NCBI GenBank assembly: GCA_002695005.1
Contig: NZNT01000025.1
Span: forward strand, 62,001 to 126,000
Source: Maritimibacter sp.
GTDB lineage: Bacteria; Pseudomonadota; Alphaproteobacteria; Rhodobacterales; Rhodobacteraceae
Direction: 5' to 3'
Length of the DNA stretch: 64,000 nt
Shown here: positions 13,935-28,467 of the stretch, in pieces
Layout: every line of letters begins with the position of its first letter
Position numbering within the stretch: the stretch's first letter is position 1
The notes under the pieces: model-generated
What the model was told of the DNA's origin: nothing
Seen by the model: the letters and a program-made list of their open reading frames with translations, nothing else
The model's database searches: none
Program-made: the position numbers and the translations under genes

Positions 13935-14684
13935 TCAGGCGCTGCGGGCCGCGCGCTCCACGGCCTGCCCCACAAAACACCCTTTATCACGCACGAAGGC
14001 GAGGAGTTCCTGATCCTCGGCGGTGGCCGCGGCGACACGCGCGCGCACGGCAGATGACAGTGAACGGCGCGTCACCCCGTGGGTCGAGACGTTGAGCCGT
14101 GTGGTTCCATCCCAGCTCACCCCGAGCCATGACTGCGCGACACGGTTGGCCGCCTCCATCTCCTCCACACAGCCGACGAAGGCGAAATGCGCCTCGATAT
14201 TGGCGCGGGCGGCGGCAAAAGTGGCTGTGTGGTCGGCCGACAATTCCTGGCACTGATGATTGCAGATCGCGCGCGGGTCGTTGTCGATCAGAAAGAGCGC
14301 GAAGTCGTCGAGTGTCATCTCTGCCGCCTGCTGGTGCCATTTCTCCCCGACCGTCTCGCGGAAGTAATTGTAGCTCGACACCATCCGGTCGATGGGATCG
14401 CGGATGAAGGTGAAACAGGTGGGCGAGCCTTTCTCGGCGGCCTGATAGGCCGCATTGATCCGCGCGAAGGAATAATGCCCGCTGATGATGCGGGTTTCGG
14501 GTGCGTCCAATGCGGCGGCGATGTCAGGCAGGAAGGTATCCCCGTCGTTGATCTTGGGAACCGCGTCACTGCCCAGAACCGAGCGCATCTGGATCTGGAT
14601 CGACGTTCCCGCCGCCTTGAACAGATGGACGAAGGCCGGCGGCTTGATGTGGTGGACGGGCGGATTGGTGACGCTGGTCAGCAT
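13935..14684 (-). CDS. Sulfotransferase-family protein (membrane-associated/Sulfotransfer_2 type)
   Basis: The 249-residue protein has the 5'-phosphosulfate loop FKAAGTSIQ (about residue 20) and the 3'-phosphate motif TFIRDPIDRMVSSYNYF (about 93), which together mark PAPS-dependent sulfotransferases. It would transfer sulfate from PAPS to a hydroxyl, most likely on a carbohydrate given its neighbours. It converges on ribF with a 5-bp gap and lies downstream of the glycosyltransferase fusion. The acceptor is unknown. Confidence in the family is good, in the substrate low. Confidence 0.82.
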   Translation of the reverse strand: MLTSVTNPPVHHIKPPAFVHLFKAAGTSIQIQMRSVLGSDAVPKINDGDTFLPDIAAALDAPETRIISGHYSFARINAAYQAAEKGSPTCFTFIRDPIDRMVSSYNYFRETVGEKWHQQAAEMTLDDFALFLIDNDPRAICNHQCQELSADHTATFAAARANIEAHFAFVGCVEEMEAANRVAQSWLGVSWDGTTRLNVSTHGVTRRSLSSAVRARVAAATAEDQELLAFVRDKGCFVGQAVERAARSA

Positions 14685-14728
14685 GGCGCGGCCTTTCGGG
14701 TCGGACCCATGAAGGGACCGTAGCGGTT

Positions 14729-14740
14729 ATGGTGCGGTCG
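14729..14740. repeat. 12-bp direct repeat of the tRNA-Leu 3' end (candidate attachment-site remnant)
   Basis: ATGGTGCGGTCG here matches 18234-18245 exactly and in the same orientation. The second copy covers the 3' acceptor end of tRNA-Leu(GAG) including CCA. The repeats bracket the glycosyltransferase fusion and the epimerase. No integrase is present, so this is only a suggestive remnant. Confidence 0.35.
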
Positions 14741-14779
14741 GTCCATTCCGGCGGGGCGGGCGCAATTGATAGCGGACAC

Positions 14780-16840
14780 TCAGAAATCCTTTCCGCTCAT
14801 CTCATGGGCCAGCGGGCCGGGCGCCAGGCGCATAGCGAGCTCGGAAAACGAGCTCCAGGTCGAGGCGAGCAACCGGGGTGCGCGGCCCAGCAGGATCGCA
14901 TCGGCCAGCGCATAGGCCAGCTGCTCGGGCGAGCGGTCGTACAGGTCACGGTGCAGATGCGTCGCCCGTTCGCCGAACGTCGCCTCGAAGGCGCGGTAGG
15001 CCTCGGGCGTGTCGGCAGCGACGAAGATTCGGTCCGCCTCCCCCGCCTTGCGAAGCGTCTCCACCCGATTGAGGAAGGCCGAGAAATGGCTCTTGTCACG
15101 CCAGAAACCAATCTCTGCCTGGCTCTCCTCGGTCCAGTTCTCGGTTGATTCGTAGCTGAGATGCGCGTCCTTCGCGCCGCCGACCATGCGGACATGGACG
15201 CTGACATCGTTGGGCGCGCGCACGGAGGCGACGAGGCCGCGCACGCGCGCGACCGGCGTGAGGTCGCGCAGAAAGGCGTTCTCGGCCTCCCAACTCGTGC
15301 CGCCGCAGTTCAGCACATAGGCCGAGCGGGCATAGAGGTCCCCCGCCCATGTAAGGTCGATGGGCGCGTCCTTTTCCGCCCCGGCCTCGATTTCCATGTA
15401 GTTGTAGACGCGGGCACCGAGCCGGGCGGCATCCGCTGCGAAACTCTCCTCGATCACCGCGCCGTCGTAGTCGAAAAGGTCCGTAAGACGCGCTTCGCAA
15501 TGATCGTCGGGCTGCCACACTACCACGAGTTCGCGCCCGGTCGCCTTGGCCACAGCAGCGGCAGATCCCATCGCGCGCAAGCGGTTGCCCAACCCGTGCT
15601 GGGCGTCGATGAAAAGCCGCGTTCGATGCGGGACATAGGCCGGGGCGCGGATATCGGGGGCCGGCTTGGCGTCGCGCTCCTGCTGGCGCAGGGCGCGCCG
15701 CACGTCCTGTTCGTTGAGCGCGGCGGCGGGTTGCGACAGGAGGCACCGCAGGCGCGCGTCCTCCAGCCCGAGAACCGCTTGTCCGAACCGCCATGACGCC
15801 ATGACACGCAGCGCAGTGTCGTCGGCCCGTTCGGCCACGAAGCGCGGCACCTCGTTCGGGTGGCTCGCACGACGGCGCAGGATTTCGGATCCGTCTGGCA
15901 GGGTCGTATGGGCGAGCGGCAGCGGTTCCAGATGCGGCTTCCAGTCCGGCATGAGTTCGACGAGGTAGCGATTGCGGCGGATGCCGAAATGCGGATCGCC
16001 CGTAATGAGGTCCAGCGCGCTGCCGGAGCGGCGGTTCACGCCCTCATCCAGCCGCTCCTCGTCCCCGTGCGGCTGATGATAGATCGTGTCCTGCACCACG
16101 TCGCGTCGGAGGGCGCCTTCGGTTTCAAGACGGTCGTAGAGGTCGTCATCGTCCCAGCCGTAGGAGGTGATGAACTCGTTGAACCCGCCCACACGGGCAA
16201 GCGCGGCGCGGTGGGTGTAGAAAAACCCGTTCGTGTGCTGCTGATCCTTCGTGGCGAGCTTCCAGTTGCCCGCGATGAACCCGTCGTCGGGGAGCGGGTT
16301 GCGGTCGAAAAAATCCGGATTGATGAGGATATCGGCGTCCGCCTTGACGATCCGGTCGTAACGCGACAGCCGGAAGCCCGCGTTATAGGCGTAAGACAGC
16401 GTCCACTTGTCCTCCCCCTCCACACGGACCACGCGCAGGCGCGGGTCCCGGATGCCGCGCGCGGCGAGGTCCCCGGCCACCGGCGTATCCGAGGACCAGT
16501 CGACGATGAGGATCTCGCTCAGCTCGTCGAGCGCGATCCACGACAACACCGCCTCGGCAAGGTTGTCGGTCCGGTTGCGCGCGCAGGAGACGAGGCTCAC
16601 CCCCGGCTTCGCAATGGCTTCGAGGCGCGGCAGGGTCGTCGTGGTCGGCGACCGCATTTGCCCCTCAGGGCGCGCGGGTTCCGCGATGTCGATCGCGCGC
16701 AGCGCGCCGGAATTGAACGCGGCACCACGCTGCCGCACCTTCGTCAGAATATTGAGTATATCCAAGTTTTCTTGCCCGATGAGATGTCTCACCCCGGCAG
16801 CTCCCGGACCGACATTGGCGCAAGTGTTAATTCCGGTCAA
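14780..16840 (-). CDS. Fusion: GT2 glycosyltransferase + fucosyltransferase-like (GT-B) domain
   Basis: This 686-residue protein has two parts. Residues about 75-330 form a GT2/galactosyltransferase-like domain, with VSLVSCARNR at the start, a DADILINPDFF metal-binding motif, and GGFNEF..YGWDDDDLYDRL as the acceptor-side motif. Residues about 395-680 resemble GT-B fucosyltransferases, with GLGNRLRAMGSA (donor-side glycines), HVRMVGGAKDAHLSYES and a late STWSSFSELA motif. No membrane span is seen, so it is likely cytoplasmic. An alternative start at 16657 (M62) has GAGGGG close upstream and would trim a non-conserved leader. It is divergent from the GDP-mannose epimerase-like gene, which could supply its sugar donor. 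Exact linkage unknown. Confidence 0.78.
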   Translation of the reverse strand: MTGINTCANVGPGAAGVRHLIGQENLDILNILTKVRQRGAAFNSGALRAIDIAEPARPEGQMRSPTTTTLPRLEAIAKPGVSLVSCARNRTDNLAEAVLSWIALDELSEILIVDWSSDTPVAGDLAARGIRDPRLRVVRVEGEDKWTLSYAYNAGFRLSRYDRIVKADADILINPDFFDRNPLPDDGFIAGNWKLATKDQQHTNGFFYTHRAALARVGGFNEFITSYGWDDDDLYDRLETEGALRRDVVQDTIYHQPHGDEERLDEGVNRRSGSALDLITGDPHFGIRRNRYLVELMPDWKPHLEPLPLAHTTLPDGSEILRRRASHPNEVPRFVAERADDTALRVMASWRFGQAVLGLEDARLRCLLSQPAAALNEQDVRRALRQQERDAKPAPDIRAPAYVPHRTRLFIDAQHGLGNRLRAMGSAAAVAKATGRELVVVWQPDDHCEARLTDLFDYDGAVIEESFAADAARLGARVYNYMEIEAGAEKDAPIDLTWAGDLYARSAYVLNCGGTSWEAENAFLRDLTPVARVRGLVASVRAPNDVSVHVRMVGGAKDAHLSYESTENWTEESQAEIGFWRDKSHFSAFLNRVETLRKAGEADRIFVAADTPEAYRAFEATFGERATHLHRDLYDRSPEQLAYALADAILLGRAPRLLASTWSSFSELAMRLAPGPLAHEMSGKDF

Positions 16841-16849
16841 CGCGGTCCG

Positions 16850-17010
16850 AATTATTTTATGCAGTTTTTTGTTCTACAGAAGGAAAACGCGTTGTTTCGG
16901 ATAATAATTTTTCAGACACCCAGAATATTAACCTTTCGTTAACCCTTTTTTGCATCCGACGGAAATACAGGTCCGTCAGTGAAAAAATTAAGGAATAGTT
17001 TGTCTCAGGA
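16850..17010. other. AT-rich divergent promoter region of the glycan genes
   Basis: In a GC-rich chromosome this roughly 160-bp stretch is strikingly AT-rich, with several T and A runs and repeated TTAA words. It lies inside the 339-bp gap between the divergently read glycosyltransferase fusion and the epimerase gene and contains the CtrA-type box listed separately. Such regions can be targets of xenogeneic or MucR-type regulators in alphaproteobacteria. That part is inference. The rest of the gap, 17011-17179, holds no gene I can support. Confidence 0.5.
16928..16943. promoter_or_regulatory. CtrA-type box TTAA-N7-TTAAC
   Basis: TTAACCTTTCGTTAAC matches the full CtrA consensus TTAA-N7-TTAA(C) exactly. 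It lies in the divergent promoter region, about 90 bp from the annotated start of the glycosyltransferase fusion and about 240 bp from the epimerase start. The same consensus occurs upstream of the GT2 synthase at 30237. Binding is not shown. Confidence 0.55.
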
Positions 17011-17179
17011 CACTTGCCTCCGGGGGCTTCGGCTACGCGAGACCCAGCGCCTGAGGCGTTTGGCGCGGTGTGTCTTGAATGGCCCACACTTAACGGACGC
17101 GCGACAAATCGGACCTTGCGCGATCCGCCTGAAACTCTACGGTCCCTAAACCATCGAATACCATTTCTGGACGGAAAAC

Positions 17180-18154
17180 ATGAAAACAGCACTCGTACTC
17201 GGCGCCGGCGGCTTTATCGGCGGGCATCTCGTGAAACGCCTTAAGCGCGAGGGGTTCTGGGTGCGTGGCGTGGACCTTAAATTCCACGAACATGCAGAGA
17301 CGGAAGCGGACGATTTCGTCATCGGCGATCTGCGCGAGCAGGACGTGGTGCGTTCGGTGATCGACCGGCGCTTCGACGAGGTCTACCAACTCGCCGCCGA
17401 CATGGGCGGTGCGGGCTATGTATTCACTGGTGAGAATGACGCCGACATTATGCACAACTCGGCGACCATCAACCTGAACGTGCTGGACGCCTGCCACAAG
17501 CGCAACATCAAGCGGGTGTTCTACTCATCGTCGGCCTGCATGTATCCCGAGCACAACCAGCTCGACCCAGACAACCCGAACTGTGCCGAGGATAGCGCCT
17601 ATCCGGCCAATCCCGACAGCGAATACGGGTGGGAAAAGCTGTTCTCGGAACGCCTCTACCTGGCCTACAACCGCAACTACGGAATGGAGTGTCGGGTCGC
17701 GCGTTATCACAACATCTTCGGCGTCGAGGGCACCTGGGACGGCGGCAAGGAAAAGGCCCCGGCCGCGCTGTGCCGCAAGGTCGCGATGACGCCCGAGGGC
17801 GGCACGATCGAGGTCTGGGGCGACGGGCTGCAAACCCGGTCGTTCCTCTATGTCGACGAATGCGTCGAGGGCTCGACCCGGCTGTTGCGCTCGGAATTCG
17901 AGGGACCCGTGAACATCGGGTCGGAAGAGATGATTTCGATCAACGACCTGGCCAGGATGGTGATCGACCTGTCCGGCAAGGATATCTCGATCCACAACAT
18001 CCCCGGCCCCGAGGGCGTGCGTGGACGCAATTCCGACAACCGGCTGATCCGCGAAAAGCTGGATTGGGAGCCGACCGAGACCCTGCGCGCGGGGATGGAA
18101 AAGACCTACGCCTGGATCGCGGGCGAGGCTGCGCGCCGCCACAACCTCCACTGA
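17180..18154 (+). CDS. GDP-mannose 3,5-epimerase-like NAD-dependent epimerase
   Basis: The 324-residue short-chain-fold epimerase starts with the NAD-binding LGAGGFIGGHLVKRL. It has the catalytic SSSACMYP (Ser/Thr position) and an EYGWEKL motif, where the Tyr-x3-Lys pair would be YGWEK. Beyond the general family, several stretches closely follow plant GDP-mannose 3,5-epimerase as I remember it: ECRVARYHNIFG, TWDGGKEKAPAALCRK, WGDGLQTRSF, VNIGSEEMISIN and IPGPEGVRGRNSDN. That enzyme turns GDP-D-mannose into GDP-L-galactose. The neighbours, a fucosyltransferase-like fusion and sulfotransferases, fit a surface glycan. A related sugar epimerase or dehydratase activity remains possible. Confidence 0.85.
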   Translation: MKTALVLGAGGFIGGHLVKRLKREGFWVRGVDLKFHEHAETEADDFVIGDLREQDVVRSVIDRRFDEVYQLAADMGGAGYVFTGENDADIMHNSATINLNVLDACHKRNIKRVFYSSSACMYPEHNQLDPDNPNCAEDSAYPANPDSEYGWEKLFSERLYLAYNRNYGMECRVARYHNIFGVEGTWDGGKEKAPAALCRKVAMTPEGGTIEVWGDGLQTRSFLYVDECVEGSTRLLRSEFEGPVNIGSEEMISINDLARMVIDLSGKDISIHNIPGPEGVRGRNSDNRLIREKLDWEPTETLRAGMEKTYAWIAGEAARRHNLH

Positions 18155-18185
18155 ACCCGCGGCCGGAACAGACCCTGAAAAACCA

Positions 18186-18211
18186 AAAGCCCCGCGATTT
18201 CGCTGGGCTTT
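18186..18211. terminator. Bidirectional rho-independent terminator
   Basis: AAAGCCC...GGGCTTT arms with an inner GCG/CGC stem form a hairpin 31 bp after the epimerase stop. On the minus strand it is followed by TTTT, serving tRNA-Leu transcription. The T tract on the plus strand is short. Confidence 0.6.
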
Positions 18212-18234
18212 GACGTTCTCCGAAAGTAGAGAAA

Positions 18235-18321
18235 TGGTGCGGTCGAGAAGACTCGAACTTCCACGGGTGTTACCCCACAGCGACCTCAACGCTGCGCGTC
18301 TACCAATTCCGCCACGACCGC
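18235..18321 (-). tRNA. tRNA-Leu (anticodon GAG)
   Basis: On the minus strand an 87-nt gene runs from GCGGTCG to CGACCGC-A-CCA, giving a perfect 7-bp acceptor stem and an encoded CCA. The anticodon arm is CAGCG-TTGAGGT-CGCTG with GAG at positions 34-36, reading CUC/CUU leucine codons. The long variable arm expected of a class II tRNA (around GTGGGGTAACACCCGT) and the T loop GTTCGAGTC are visible. Confidence 0.95.
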
Positions 18322-18523
18322 ACTGTCTTGGCTTGGTGGCGCGCTGAATAGCGCGGGATTCGTGGGATGTGAAGAGGGGAAATCGCATTTCTTGGCAATG
18401 ATACGCAGGCAGCCTGAAATTCGCACATGTACGGGCAAAACCGGCGCGATGCAGGCGAATGCGCGCGACAATCGTTGCCTCGCGGCACCGTGCCGGCCCC
18501 GGTAGACGCCCATATTCAACGGG
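18322..18523. other. Gap upstream of tRNA-Leu, no gene seen
   Basis: Together with the following degenerate fragment, this makes a stretch of nearly 490 bp between tRNA-Leu and the DUF2306 gene. The reading frames here are short, lack ribosome sites and show no recognisable protein pattern. The tRNA promoter should lie just upstream of 18321 on the minus strand, but I cannot fix its boxes with confidence. Confidence 0.4.
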
Positions 18524-18856
18524 GTGTCATCGCTCACGGTGGACGGGAGGGACCACAATCTCACCGAACGCCCCTCGCTCGCCCACGGGGTGTTCGATGA
18601 CTACGGCATGAGCGGCAACACCCATTCGGTCGCGATATTCGGGACCTCGGCAAGCTGGCGCACCGGTGCCGGCGTCGCTTGTTATGCCGGCGTGATCGGC
18701 GGGGCGACGGGCGACGAGGTGGCCGGCGGGGTCGCGATCGAGCACGACAACACCGACATGCTTTACGATATGACGGGGATCGGCGCTCTCGTCGCCAACT
18801 TACACCTTCAGGCGCGGCTGGATTGCCGGTCGCGCCGGACGGCCCAGGCGATATAG
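18524..18856 (+). pseudogene. Possible remnant of a secreted/lipoprotein gene (C-terminal fragment)
   Basis: An open frame of up to 110 codons reads like the C-terminal half of a glycine-rich beta-structured surface protein (DYGMSGNTHSVAIFG, CYAGVIGGATGDEVAGGV, EHDNTDMLYDMTGIGALV). It has no signal peptide and no good ribosome site. In-frame stop TAG at 18503 cuts it off upstream, although the residues between that stop and the GTG already look coding. Its end overlaps the convergent DUF2306 gene. I read it as a decayed fragment beside the tRNA gene. A small intact gene is the alternative. Confidence 0.3.
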
Positions 18857-19323
18857 GCCAGAGCTGCGACGACCATCGCAATGGTCAGTGGCGCGCCGAG
18901 AGTGTTGGCCGACCCCGGCTCACCGCTGCCGAAGACCACTTCGTTCATGATCCGTCCCGGCACGAGGGTCAGGCCCCCGGCAATCCCGAGGCCCCAGAGC
19001 GCGGTACCTTTCATGATCCCCTGATGCGCCTTAACGTTACCCCGGCGGATCTGGCGGATGGCGTTGAACAGGTTGAAAAGCACGAGAAGCGAAAGCGCGT
19101 GTATCGGGCTGAACGGGCCGATGAGCTGGTTCTCCATGATCCAGAAGGATGAGACCGCCGTGACCAGCATGTTGGTCACCCAGGCGTAGCCCGTGATCCT
19201 GTGCAAAAGGTCGCGTTTCCTGCGGAAAAGCGCGAAGGGCGTGAGCAGGATCGATTCCGTCGCAGCTATGACGTGGATCTGGACGGCGAGGTCTGCTTCG
19301 AAAAGCGGCGTGAGGTCGAACAT
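18808..19323 (-). CDS. DUF2306-like integral membrane protein
   Basis: From the ATG at 19323, which has GGAGAG five bases upstream, the product is 171 residues (MFDLTPLFEADL...). It has about four predicted membrane spans: around VQIHVIAATESILLTPF, VTNMLVTAVSSFWI, IHALSLLVLFNLF and a C-terminal LTIAMVVAALAYIAWAV. The pattern of HRITGYAW and HQGIMKG fits the DUF2306 family of bacterial membrane proteins, whose function is not established. The longer frame to 19458 adds an arginine-rich segment with no support. No clear operon partner. Confidence 0.7.
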   Translation of the reverse strand: MFDLTPLFEADLAVQIHVIAATESILLTPFALFRRKRDLLHRITGYAWVTNMLVTAVSSFWIMENQLIGPFSPIHALSLLVLFNLFNAIRQIRRGNVKAHQGIMKGTALWGLGIAGGLTLVPGRIMNEVVFGSGEPGSANTLGAPLTIAMVVAALAYIAWAVRRDRQSSRA

Positions 19324-19463
19324 GGGTCTCTCCATGGCTTGCGTTGCGATGGGAGACGGGTGGCAGGCGGCGCGGTCCGGCGCGAGCCTTGTTACGCGAA
19401 TGCGGCGTCGAAACGCGTGTATGGCAAAGGATTGCCGTTCGCGAAGCGTGAATGGCAATCGCG

Positions 19464-20222
19464 TTACACGTTCAACCCGAGCCTACGCGCGGCTTTCATT
19501 TTCCGCTCGAATCCGATGGCCGAATAGGCCCGCTCGGCCTCGGCGGACCAGAGGCGCTTGCGGTCGACCTCAAGCCCGGTGGCCTTGGTCTTGGTCTCCG
19601 CCGCACGGGCGCGGGCCAGCGCCTCGGGCACGCGCGCCGGGTCGCGGCCCAGCCATCGGGCCAAAGCCTCGCCGCTGGCGTCGCCTTCGAGCAGATCATC
19701 AAAGCTGCAAAAGGCATAGCGGCGCGGCGAAAAGCCCGGCACACGCAGCAGGACGAGGCGCCGGATGCCCAGAAGCTCGTTCCAACGGTCCATCTGGACA
19801 GGCCCCTTCTGCCTGAGGAAGGCCACGAAGGCCGCATCGTCATCTTGGAAATTGTCACGCGACATCCACCGCACGTCACGGCGGCGATAGCGGAAGTCGA
19901 CGAACTCCGACATGAGCGTCTTGCGCGGATGGCGGTAGGTGCAGATGAAGCGCAGGCCGGGAAAACGCAACGGGCGCAGGGCGACCGGGAAATGGCCAAA
20001 AGCCACTTCGCCGTCCTTCAAGCCCCGGATGACTTCCGCGTAGGGCCTGTTCTCAATGGTCGCCGTAGGCGTTTCTATGTTGACGGAAAGCGGGAAATCC
20101 TTGGTGCGCAGCACGTCGTTCAGTCCGACGTGGAAGCCCGTATCGGTGAAGCCGAGCTGGGCGAGGAATTCGGCCGTGAAATAGGTTCCGGCCTTGGGAA
20201 TCGTGTTGATGTAGACCTTCAT
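19464..20222 (-). CDS. Sulfotransferase domain protein
   Basis: The 252-residue protein starts at the ATG at 20222, at once giving the 5'-phosphosulfate loop INTIPKAGTYFTAEFL (residues 4-19). The 3'-phosphate motif is CTYRHPRKTLMSEF (about 100). These are signatures of PAPS-dependent sulfotransferases. A longer frame reaching 20414 adds an unlikely Arg/Cys-rich leader. This is the second sulfotransferase near the epimerase and glycosyltransferase genes, and both may modify the same glycan. The two sulfotransferases are not close relatives, so they probably act on different positions or acceptors. Confidence 0.8.
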   Translation of the reverse strand: MKVYINTIPKAGTYFTAEFLAQLGFTDTGFHVGLNDVLRTKDFPLSVNIETPTATIENRPYAEVIRGLKDGEVAFGHFPVALRPLRFPGLRFICTYRHPRKTLMSEFVDFRYRRRDVRWMSRDNFQDDDAAFVAFLRQKGPVQMDRWNELLGIRRLVLLRVPGFSPRRYAFCSFDDLLEGDASGEALARWLGRDPARVPEALARARAAETKTKATGLEVDRKRLWSAEAERAYSAIGFERKMKAARRLGLNV

Positions 20223-21152: not shown

Positions 21153-21800
21153 ATGGTCGAGTGGAAAATCACGGACGGGCTGACCGACTACGATGAAGCG
21201 GTCGCATTCATGGAGGCGCGAGCGGCGGCCATCGCGGCGGGCGAGGCCGAGGAGCTTGTCTGGCTGGTCGAGCACCCGCCGCTCTACACGGCCGGCACGT
21301 CTGCCAAGCCCGCCGACCTCGTCGATGCGGACCGTTTCCCGGTCTACGAGACCAAGCGCGGGGGCCAATACACCTATCATGGCCCTGGTCAGCGCGTGGC
21401 CTATGTCATGCTGGACGTGGGCGCCCGCGGACGCGACGTGCGCGCCTTCGTGAAACAGCTCGAGGATTGGGTGATCGCCGCGCTGGACACGTTCAACGTG
21501 ACCGGCGTCATCCGCGAGGGCCGCGTCGGCGTCTGGGTGGTGCGCAACGACAAGCCCCTCTCGGCCACCGGCGCCCCGCAGGAGGACAAGATCGCGGCAA
21601 TCGGCGTGCGCCTGCGAAAATGGGTGAGCTTTCACGGCATTTCGGTCAACGTGGACCCAGACCTCGACCATTTCACAGGGATCGTGCCGTGCGGCATCAC
21701 CGAACACGGCGTCACATCCCTCGTCGATCTGGGTCTGCCGGTCACAATGGCGGACCTCGACGTGGCGCTGCGGCGCGGCTTTGATACGGTGTTCGGCTAG
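21153..21800 (+). CDS. lipB: Octanoyltransferase (lipoate biosynthesis)
   Basis: LipB moves the octanoyl group from acyl carrier protein to lipoyl domains of 2-oxoacid dehydrogenases and the glycine cleavage system. The 215-residue protein has [13 protein letters not shown] (about residue 32), the [12 protein letters not shown] substrate loop (about 69), and the acyl-thioester Cys in [15 protein letters not shown] (about 175). Length and motifs are normal. It follows the LytTR gene by 4 bp, and its stop overlaps the stop of the convergent lipoprotein gene. Confidence 0.96.
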
Positions 21801-26299: not shown

Positions 26300-26841
26300 T
26301 GCCCTATGAATGGGAGCACCCGATCACCGACGCCCCGCACACGGATGCACGTGGGCGCGACGCAGGCGGCGCGCCCATCGCGGTGCTTCACGTCTGGCCC
26401 TTTCGCTCGCTCCCCAAGCGCGGCTTCGCCTTCGCCATCGGCTTTGCCTATGTCTTTCTGATGATCCCGATCTCGGCATTTGTCGGCACGGTCGCCATGT
26501 GGTGGCTGCTTTTCCCCGGCCTCATCGCGATCTTCGGCCTGTGGTGGTTCATCGGCAAAAGCTACCGCGACGGAGAAATCCTCGAAGAACTGACTATCTG
26601 GACCGACCACGTCCGCCTGACCCGCACCGGGCCGCGCCGCACCTATGCGGAGTGGGAGGCGAACCCGCATTGGGTGACCGTGCAGAAACATGCGAATGGC
26701 GGGCCGGTGAAGGACTACATCACGCTCAAGGGCAACGGGCGCGAGGTTGAGATCGGCGCGTTCCTGTCCGAGGACGAGCGCCCACCCCTTTTCGACGATC
26801 TCGACAGGGCCTTCACGCTGGCCAAATCACGGCGCGGATGA
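26299..26841 (+). CDS. DUF2244 domain membrane protein
   Basis: Starting at the ATG at 26299, which overlaps the upstream stop, the product has 180 residues. After a hydrophilic N-terminus there are two spans (FAFAIGFAYVFLMIPISAFV and WWLLFPGLIAIFGLWWFIG). They are followed by a soluble C-terminal part with WTDHVRLTRTGPRR, NPHWVTVQ and LSEDERPPLFDDL, the layout of DUF2244. The family is common in alphaproteobacteria and often sits near cytochrome oxidase genes, as here, but its role is not established. The 3' end overlaps the convergent gene by 15 bp. Confidence 0.8.
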   Translation: MPYEWEHPITDAPHTDARGRDAGGAPIAVLHVWPFRSLPKRGFAFAIGFAYVFLMIPISAFVGTVAMWWLLFPGLIAIFGLWWFIGKSYRDGEILEELTIWTDHVRLTRTGPRRTYAEWEANPHWVTVQKHANGGPVKDYITLKGNGREVEIGAFLSEDERPPLFDDLDRAFTLAKSRRG

Positions 26842-28362
26842 AGTCGGCCTGACGCCTGCGCGCAGATCTTCGTGGATCGTCTCGACAATGAAACGCGCCG
26901 GGTCGCCACGCGGGGTCAACTCGTCGATCAGCGCTTGCTGCACGTCGTCCTTGCGCGGAACCGAGCCGTCCAGCAGCCCCTCGATCAGCGCCTCGATGTC
27001 CTCGATCCGGGTGGCGGGCAACTCATGCGTCCCACGCGCCACCCTCTCGCCCAACGCGTTCCACGGAGAGTGGTCAGGGCGTGACAGCCGGATCACAGGT
27101 TTCTTGAGCAGCTGGTATTCCATCAGAAAGCTCAGACCGTCGACGATCAGGATGTCCGATGCGGCGAACGGGCCCTGATACTCGCCAGTGCGCAGCTGGC
27201 CGGTATTCCCGAGCGCATCCCAGGCGGCGAAAAACGCCTCATACCGCGCCCGCTCGTCACCCGTGGTCGCGTTGATGCGGGACAACAGGCCGGGGTGCGG
27301 GCTGAAGAGAAAGTCGATGTCGGGACGGCGCGTGGCCAGTGCGAGCATCTCGTCGCAGACTTGCGGGAAGACACCGAAGTTGTTCCAGCCCGTCGAAATG
27401 GCGTGATGTGCGCTCCAGATCGTGCGCTTGGCATTGCCGGAGGCGATGGGCCAGCTTGGTCGCGCGTTCTGCACTTCGGTCACCTTGGGATGGCCTGAGA
27501 CTGTCAGCCGGGCACCATCCAGCCGGTCATGCGCGCGAAGGATGTCGCGGCTCGTCTCACAGGCCACGAACTGCCGGGCGAGGAGGTCTTTCCGCGTGTG
27601 ACCGATGATGCCGCCACCGGACGTGATGAGCGGGGCGATAGCATAAGGCACATAGTATTGCGTGGCGAACGTCAGATGCTCAGTCCGGAAAACCGGCGGC
27701 ACGTCCGCCTGCCAATGCGACTGTCGGAAGATCACTTCAAGATCGAACGCCTTCATCCGGGCGATATCGACCTCCGGCTCGTCATCGTTCAGGCGCACAT
27801 GCCCCACGCCCTCGGCAGCAAGGCACGCGCTATTGTGATCTTCGTCTCCGAACGTCTCGGCGCCCGGAAACCGGCGCGCAATCGTGAACACGACGGGTTC
27901 GAACCGAGGATCGTCGCGCATGAGGGCATGGACGGCTCGGAGCGCGCCCCAGGCTTCGTAATTGTGGACAAGAAATCCGACCCGGATCGGCTGACCGCGC
28001 CGTCTCAACATCGTGGCGAAACGGGCAGCCCCCGCACTGTTTCCGGCGGCGACTTGCGCGAACTCGTTCACCCGCGCGGTGAGGGTTTCGAGCGTGTCGA
28101 GCCGTTCGCCGATCTGCGCCGTCTCGCGCGTCAGCACATCCTCGGCCATATCGCGGGCCGACAGTCGCGTTTCGATCGCGCTCAGGGTCTCACGCTGTGC
28201 CTTCAGCTCGGCAGCGATGCGATGTGTCGCGTCGGTGAGTTGGTCGATCCGCTTGTGAAGGCCAGCGCGTCGGCGCAGTCGCAAAATCCGGTCTGCCAGG
28301 GATGCGATGCCCCGCGTGCGCCCCCCGAAGTGGGGCGCATTCATGTCGTCATTGGCGCTCAT
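26827..28362 (-). CDS. CDP-glycerol glycerophosphotransferase-like protein with N-terminal coiled coil
   Basis: The product is 511 residues from the ATG at 28362, with a GTG at 28407 as alternative. Residues about 25-105 are Leu/Glu/Arg-rich heptads (KRIDQLTDATHRIAAELKAQ), likely a coiled coil. The rest resembles the GT-B fold of teichoic-acid polymerases and related Glyphos_transf proteins: IRVGFLVHNYEAWGALRAVH at the N-domain, FSPHPGLLSRI with the catalytic-type His, and DILIVDGLSFLMEYQLLKKPVIRL as donor motif. It probably transfers a phosphate-linked or nucleotide-linked unit to a surface polymer. No partners are adjacent. Function is inferred from fold motifs only. Confidence 0.62.
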   Translation of the reverse strand: MSANDDMNAPHFGGRTRGIASLADRILRLRRRAGLHKRIDQLTDATHRIAAELKAQRETLSAIETRLSARDMAEDVLTRETAQIGERLDTLETLTARVNEFAQVAAGNSAGAARFATMLRRRGQPIRVGFLVHNYEAWGALRAVHALMRDDPRFEPVVFTIARRFPGAETFGDEDHNSACLAAEGVGHVRLNDDEPEVDIARMKAFDLEVIFRQSHWQADVPPVFRTEHLTFATQYYVPYAIAPLITSGGGIIGHTRKDLLARQFVACETSRDILRAHDRLDGARLTVSGHPKVTEVQNARPSWPIASGNAKRTIWSAHHAISTGWNNFGVFPQVCDEMLALATRRPDIDFLFSPHPGLLSRINATTGDERARYEAFFAAWDALGNTGQLRTGEYQGPFAASDILIVDGLSFLMEYQLLKKPVIRLSRPDHSPWNALGERVARGTHELPATRIEDIEALIEGLLDGSVPRKDDVQQALIDELTPRGDPARFIVETIHEDLRAGVRPTSSAP

Positions 28363-28467
28363 CAAGCCCCCGGAACCGTTTGCGTCAAAGGGCCTTGCGC
28401 TATCCACAGGCCGTTAACGCGAAGATTATCCGGTATTTTTCGCCCGGAAAAGCCCGAGGTGGGCCGC

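Follow-up and report, generated by a model that had tools for sequence, protein, structure and literature searches.

A plant-type GDP-mannose 3,5-epimerase beside a fucosyltransferase-fold fusion gene in Maritimibacter: a candidate locus for sulfated L-galactose decoration

The locus and its enzymes

We analyzed a stretch of 64,000 nucleotides from a Maritimibacter sp. genome (GenBank assembly GCA_002695005.1, contig NZNT01000025.1, positions 62,001 to 126,000; hereafter the window), part of an assembly of 4.27 Mb in 30 contigs that is 99.81% complete. A first-pass annotation had proposed that a group of genes within it directs the synthesis of a sulfated L-galactose or L-fucose surface glycan, and all four open reading frames (ORFs) on which it relied are present where it had placed them: two possible sulfotransferases (ST1 and ST2), a glycosyltransferase fusion and an epimerase (Table 1). 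ST1 and the fusion gene lie on the minus strand, the epimerase gene follows on the plus strand, and beyond it come a tRNA-Leu gene, a DUF2306 gene and ST2, again all minus-strand, and then a further plus-strand gene, all of them between two genes that we take to be ribF (to 13929) and lipB (21153-21800). The first-pass annotation had mentioned neither the tRNA gene nor the DUF2306 gene. The order of the protein genes is kept in a second Maritimibacter, M. alkaliphilus HTCC2654 (genome G229; locus L117), and in both genomes the fusion and the epimerase are divergent neighbors. Elsewhere in the window, a 526-residue protein (26827-28407, minus strand) has a weak match to CDP-glycerol glycerophosphotransferase (16.1 bits, cut-off 22.1) and is a possible further glycan enzyme.

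Table 1. Features of the window, and of the six other loci in which GDP-mannose 3,5-epimerase (GME) lies in the flanks of the transfer domain (GME-linked loci; MAG, metagenome-assembled genome)
Feature	Location	Positions	Strand	Remarks
ST1, Sulfotransfer_2 family protein, 249 residues	Window	13935..14684	-	Directly behind the fusion gene
Fusion gene, 686 residues as longest ORF	Window	14780..16840	-	Similarity to M. alkaliphilus protein starts at 16765
N-terminal GT2 glycosyltransferase domain of fusion, residues 61-395	Window	15656..16660 (approximate limits)	-	PF00535, PF02709
C-terminal fucosyltransferase-like domain of fusion, residues 399-686	Window	14783..15646	-	Fold match, no Pfam family
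GME	Window	17180..18154	+	342.6 bits to Arabidopsis GME
tRNA-Leu (GAG)	Window	18235..18321	-	Between GME and ST2; not thought part of the system
DUF2306 membrane protein	Window	18808..19458	-	PF10067, 57 bits (cut-off 31.6); not thought part of the system
ST2, possible sulfotransferase, 252 residues	Window	19464..20222	-	Within longer ORF to 20414; PF00685 under cut-off
GME then fcl	L056	6880-10289		gmd not found in genome
GME then fcl	L057	14102-16065		gmd not found in genome
GME then fcl	L064	13140-16538		gmd not found in genome
Sulfotransfer_2 gene behind fusion	L056, Actibacterium MAG			113.8 bits
Sulfotransferase-like gene behind fusion	L057, Rhizobiaceae MAG			111.6 bits
Sulfotransferase-like gene behind fusion (Sulfotransfer_1)	L059, Cognatishimia activa			17.0 bits, under cut-off 22
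APH-type kinase gene next after fusion	L064, Pararhodobacter MAG
Sulfotransferase-like gene behind fusion	L079, Pseudomonadota MAG			20.4 bits, under cut-off, but 40-41% identical to ST1
Sulfotransferase-like gene behind fusion	L117, M. alkaliphilus			23.3 bits, cut-off 22

The epimerase is a plant-type GME, as judged by both its overall identity and its active site. In a phmmer search of the PDB it matched the Arabidopsis enzyme (2c59) with an E value of 2e-101, whereas the next family, UDP-glucuronate decarboxylase, reached 89.2 bits, and it is 51% identical to the plant protein. Eight residues of the plant active site are all present (S118, C120, Y149, K153, N178, K192, R220 and R283, placed with the two-residue offset of the PDB construct), and the same eight are conserved both among seven relatives from bacteria and at the six GME-linked loci. 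Excerpts of the relevant literature assign S118, Y149 and K153 to a catalytic triad, C120 and K192 to an acid/base pair, and R283 to the acidification of the cysteine, and they distinguish GME from Fcl by lysine in place of histidine and arginine in place of lysine (PMC8787198). The first-pass annotation, which had noted motifs of the plant enzyme, is thus borne out down to these diagnostic residues. As an alternative identity, GDP-fucose synthase was ruled out, with the Fcl model reaching 114.3 bits against a cut-off of 500.

The N-terminal part of the fusion matches GT2 (PF00535, 30.9 bits, cut-off 23.3) and Glyco_transf_7C (PF02709, 23.5 bits, cut-off 23), while no Pfam family was matched at E ≤ 1 by the 288 residues at its C-terminal end. 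This C-terminal transfer domain has the conserved stretches HGLGNRLR, HVRM and STWSSFSELA, and a profile of 12 family members searched against the PDB placed NodZ first (E 8e-4) and plant FUT1 next (E 4e-3); when the entire fusion protein was searched against the PDB as a single sequence, the outcome was two chondroitin synthase chains at a weak E of 0.16. An AlphaFold2 model of the domain (pLDDT 90.9) gave 74 Foldseek matches in the PDB at E ≤ 0.001, and among the matches listed 50 of 50 were fucosyltransferases (NodZ, POFUT1, POFUT2, plant FUT1 and FUT8), the best being NodZ 3six (E 2.5e-11). As modeled, then, the domain has the GT-B fucosyltransferase fold of the NodZ, FUT8, POFUT and plant FUT1 kind, which confirms at the level of fold the fucosyltransferase-like domain that had been proposed. 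Given that the template modeling scores were 0.52-0.62 by query length and that no Pfam family was matched, we regard it as a fold relative rather than a close member of any listed fucosyltransferase family. A second GT2-domain protein of this genome (402 residues, L055, 10392-11600 on contig C15) is 44% identical to the GT2 part of the fusion and has no fucosyltransferase-like part.

The claim of two sulfotransferases held for one gene only. ST1 passes the Sulfotransfer_2 cut-off narrowly (PF03567, 25.2 bits, cut-off 22); its M. alkaliphilus orthologue is 79% identical, and a further relative of ST1 stands behind the fusion in locus L079 (Table 1). No significant relative of ST1 was found in the PDB, where the best profile match was heparan sulfate 2-O-sulfotransferase (E 0.15) and the single-sequence search was weak or empty. 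ST2 remains under the Sulfotransfer_1 cut-off (PF00685, 16.4 bits, cut-off 22), its profile found no sulfotransferase in the PDB, its single-sequence PDB search was likewise weak or empty, and its predicted structure is uninformative (pLDDT 37). It was found in 3 of 248 genomes of the family, two of them Maritimibacter. ST2 is therefore not established as a sulfotransferase, and on present evidence we do not count it in the system.

GDP-sugar supply where the transfer domain occurs

The first-pass annotation had noted that the window lacks the GDP-fucose synthesis genes gmd and fcl, and this absence extends to the genome. Across the 30 contigs, the best gmd match reached 76.6 bits (cut-off 415) and the best fcl match was GME itself at 113 bits (cut-off 500), so that neither gene is found near its curated cut-off, although salvage of GDP-fucose by an enzyme of the FKP type was not searched for. 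This result favors L-galactose over L-fucose as the sugar supplied. De novo synthesis of GDP-fucose by genes outside the window was accordingly rejected, as far as the assembled genome shows. The genome does encode manC (570.8 bits, cut-off 373).

Genomes outside Maritimibacter that carry the transfer domain present a different picture. Among the 248 family genomes the domain was matched in 12, 10 of them outside the genus, and in nine of these 10 both gmd and fcl exceed their cut-offs, the tenth (G199) having only a 77-position gmd fragment; in both Maritimibacter genomes neither gene exceeds its cut-off. With gmd present in 91 of the 248 at E ≤ 1e-60, its occurrence in nine of 10 is an enrichment (hypergeometric p 7e-4). 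In three genomes gmd and fcl are both found only a few kilobases from the domain (G062, G186 and G204), as is fcl in two more (G135 and G077).

We scanned named genomes for further copies of the domain and obtained 67 loci, with flanks of 10 kb or less on each side, many of them cut by contig ends, in which gmd, fcl and GME were assigned by our own bit-score and identity thresholds. The flanks hold gmd or fcl in 39 loci, GME in six and none of the three in 25, and three loci with GME and fcl but no gmd are counted in both of the first two classes. Under a crude model, about 0.013 loci with GME would be expected. No gmd at E ≤ 1e-30 was found in any of the six genomes with a GME-linked locus, compared to nine of the 10 domain-bearing genomes of other genera (p 9e-4; with the second Maritimibacter removed, zero of five, p 0.002). 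The gene manC (TIGR01479) exceeds its cut-off in eight of nine genomes examined, our own included; the exception is the genome of L057, where the match scores too low to pass.

The gene directly behind the fusion also tends to differ in these loci. Our tally, which relied on heuristic gene starts, covered the 57 loci in which the next gene runs in the same direction as the domain and left out the other 10 of 67. A sulfotransferase-like gene (Pfam E ≤ 0.01) occupies this position in five of the six GME-linked loci versus six of the 51 others (p 6e-4; the six are L061, L062, L071, L073, L074 and L119). At the same threshold the tally contains 13 pyruvyltransferases, nine Sulfotransfer_2 genes and two Sulfotransfer_1 genes. 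Polysaccharide pyruvyltransferase is thus the commonest next gene (13/57), and enzymes that attach a negative group, either pyruvate or sulfate, frequently come after the domain.

Two of the loci contain additional genes. In L057 (12765-14018) and L056 (5573-6829), the genes for the sulfotransferase and for GME are separated by one whose protein looks alike in both by eye, and that of L057 contains a beta-helix domain of the pectate-lyase/epimerase type (PF12708, 28.6 bits, cut-off 27). At the edge of L057 (149-3108), two genes appear from their sequence to encode sulfate adenylyltransferase subunits, which would suit the activation of sulfate for sulfotransferases.

The annotation's expectation that these genes are kept together held in part. 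The block is syntenic in the second Maritimibacter, and the fusion and GME lie within 10 kb of one another in five further loci from other genera; in four of these the gene directly behind the fusion is sulfotransferase-like. Across the Rhodobacteraceae, by contrast, the arrangement is a minority one: GME is present in nine of the 248 genomes and the transfer domain in 12, and both occur together in three.

To place the GME-linked loci relative to the others, we built a quick tree of the domain from 66 loci and the window, leaving out L122, whose match is short. Five changes are required to separate the seven GME-linked rows from all other rows, at least three of them on well-supported branches, and a minimum of three can also be reached by one gain and two losses. 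Label shuffles gave change counts as low as that observed in nine of 500 cases, and hence there is some clustering of the GME-linked rows. The GME-linked locus is apparently a minority variant, arisen more than once, of a commoner fucose-type locus. In one further genome with no gmd over the cut-off (G012), the sole match to the domain profile, a distant relative, lies divergently beside GME. In two of the genomes with GME (G053 and G202), GME stands beside a gene common to both that is glycosyltransferase-like by eye, and a sulfotransferase over the Pfam cut-off lies about 5 kb and about 2 kb away, respectively. The tree also holds a locus on a 4.4-kb contig of a Planctomycetota MAG (L063, 853-1707), whose domain groups as the sister of the L064 domain from the Pararhodobacter MAG, reflecting either transfer or mis-binning.

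Proposed donor exchange and competing explanations

We propose that these genes form a decoration module of the fucosylation type with an exchanged donor supply, wherein a fucosyl-type transferase is fed GDP-L-galactose and its product is sulfated by ST1, and we consider this account more probable than not. GDP-D-mannose, formed with the genome-encoded ManC, would be converted by GME to GDP-L-galactose; the NodZ/FUT-like domain of the fusion would then transfer L-galactose where L-fucose would otherwise be used. The acceptor would be a glycan, probably one extended by the fused GT2 domain, and ST1 would sulfate the L-galactosyl residue or its neighbor. We infer the donor actually used, the order of the steps and the site of sulfation, and the location of the glycan at the cell surface is assumed from the enzyme classes.

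L-Galactose and L-fucose differ only at C6. Several fucosyltransferases (FUT8, AtFucTA and AtFUT1) are described as transferring L-galactose from GDP-L-galactose (excerpts of PMC8787198), and the proposed transfer step is therefore plausible. In mur1 plants, the available donor rather than the enzyme is described as deciding whether a side chain carries fucose or L-galactose (excerpts of PMC4844278), and NoeE is described as sulfating the fucose of Nod factors after fucosylation (excerpts of PMC5080398). The original proposal, that the fusion adds an L-galactosyl or fucosyl residue that is then sulfated, thus gains on the donor, where L-galactose is now favored over L-fucose, and from the co-occurrence of sulfotransferases, and it loses in generality.

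A wider claim, which we advance only tentatively and with somewhat less than balanced confidence, is that in several bacterial lineages GDP-L-galactose synthesis has independently taken over from GDP-L-fucose synthesis as the supply for the same fucosyltransferase-like enzyme, in most cases alongside a sulfotransferase, such that sulfated L-galactose replaces a fucose decoration in a natural and repeated counterpart of mur1.

Several results weigh against donor exchange. Half of the GME-linked loci (L056, L057 and L064) keep an open fcl behind GME, and a plain swap needs none. The transfer domain is absent from 15 of the 19 GME-bearing genomes tested, a set that took in 10 of the 25 genomes of the class, our own not counted, in which GME was matched, and GME must therefore have other partners and is not bound to this domain; five of the 19, however, carry only a homologue of 48-50% identity, about as distant as the plant enzyme, that may not be GME. 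One genome (G077) keeps gmd and fcl and has its GME far from the transfer domain. When only the family rate is used for comparison, the absence of gmd from all six GME-linked genomes does not reach significance (p 0.09); four of the six are MAGs of unstated completeness, and one is the second Maritimibacter, which does not count as independent evidence beside the window. If the cut-off set by Pfam itself is applied, the excess of sulfotransferases falls to three of six versus five of 51 (p 0.03), and none of our p values takes kinship into account. Finally, residues separating GME-linked from gmd/fcl-linked domains cluster in the loop after HVRM (label shuffles reached the average over the top five columns in 0 of 300 and the best column in 2 of 300, with close kin within one group), but some gmd/fcl-linked domains share the same loop, and once kinship is allowed for, with only two independent pairs on supported branches, the differences could not be tied to the donor.

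The retained fcl genes may nonetheless record how an exchange came about. In L056 and L064 the gene next after fcl is manC. The fcl genes of L056 (512.4 bits) and L057 (508.9 bits) pass the equivalog cut-off of 500, while that of L064 falls under it (467.6 bits) and has alanine where the catalytic Cys109 is expected, Cys109 and His179 being the epimerization residues of Fcl (excerpts of PMC2279256). In G202 only an fcl fragment of 121-125 positions lies near GME, and gmd is still in the genome. We read these loci as intermediates on a path by which GME may have displaced gmd from an operon of gmd, fcl and manC.

Alternatively, the transfer domain may still use GDP-L-fucose, salvaged by an FKP-type kinase/pyrophosphorylase, with GME serving another, unlinked glycan. 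The company of gmd and fcl that the domain keeps in other genera is consistent with this, as are the many GME-bearing genomes without the domain. The salvage explanation is nevertheless unlikely, in that GME and the fusion are divergent neighbors in both Maritimibacter genomes and stand no more than 10 kb apart in the five further loci, in whose genomes gmd was not found.

It could also be that the genes are chance neighbors with separate roles, in an arrangement randomly kept within the genus. Synteny inside one genus says little, and ST2, the DUF2306 gene and the tRNA gene probably are such neighbors. Yet the fusion and GME, mostly with a sulfotransferase-like gene, recur in loci that stand apart on the domain tree, and we regard coincidence as quite improbable.

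More improbable still is that the transferase is fed by a side product of GME, so that the residue added is not L-galactose: excerpts of the literature describe GDP-L-gulose and GDP-D-altrose as such products (PMC8787198) and L-gulose as a constituent of bleomycin (PMC6678494), but GDP-L-galactose is named as the main product and several fucosyltransferases accept it (PMC8787198). The close match of L-galactose to L-fucose, noted above, also speaks against this reading. Least probable of all, GME and fcl might act in sequence to make another GDP-sugar, with the Maritimibacter locus a reduced form of that pathway, as the order GME then fcl with no gmd found in L056, L057 and L064, and the two fcl genes over the equivalog cut-off, would allow, but the Maritimibacter genomes contain no fcl over the cut-off, the flanks of L059 and L079 contain none, and the L064 gene is the one that scores below the cut-off and lacks Cys109.

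Relation to known systems

If donor exchange is correct, glycans built by one class of enzyme can be re-labeled through a change in the donor that is supplied, and such loci would be a source of natural L-galactosyltransferases. It could also bear on how phages recognize the cell surface and on how sulfated glycans are degraded in the sea. Excerpts of a paper characterizing one bacterial GME leave the role of these enzymes as an open question (PMC6678494), and this locus offers a concrete, testable role. Among the titles and abstract openings listed from the open-access literature, we found no description of a bacterial locus combining GME, a fucosyltransferase and a sulfotransferase. The GME of Methylacidiphilum fumariolicum, the subject of that paper, belongs to the same enzyme family, was characterized on GDP-mannose and adjoins a glycosyltransferase gene; unlike our case, a role in lipopolysaccharide was proposed for it, and the excerpts describe neither a fucosyltransferase fold nor a sulfotransferase, nor that gmd was lost (PMC6678494).

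The NodZ/NoeE pair of Nod factors, an alpha-1,6-fucosyltransferase and a fucose 3-O-sulfotransferase, likewise joins a transfer domain of the NodZ fold with a sulfotransferase. Our locus differs in that no gmd or fcl was found, GME would provide the donor and the domain is fused to GT2; moreover, Pfam's NodZ model does not match the domain. A second parallel is Arabidopsis mur1 xyloglucan and FUT1, one of our fold matches, where a fucosyltransferase is described as adding L-galactose when GDP-fucose is scarce (excerpts of PMC4844278). Whereas mur1 is a laboratory mutation, the Maritimibacter arrangement seems to be the native condition of a bacterial genus and includes a sulfotransferase. A further comparison comes from the gmd/fcl-linked loci of other Rhodobacterales (such as L058 of Nioella and L070 of Rhodosalinus), which have the same fusion of GT2 and fucosyltransferase-like domains, with the transfer domain 60-61% identical, but carry GDP-fucose genes where the window has GME. 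Related fusion enzymes, some accompanied by gmd and fcl and others by GME, thus make a clean comparison available.

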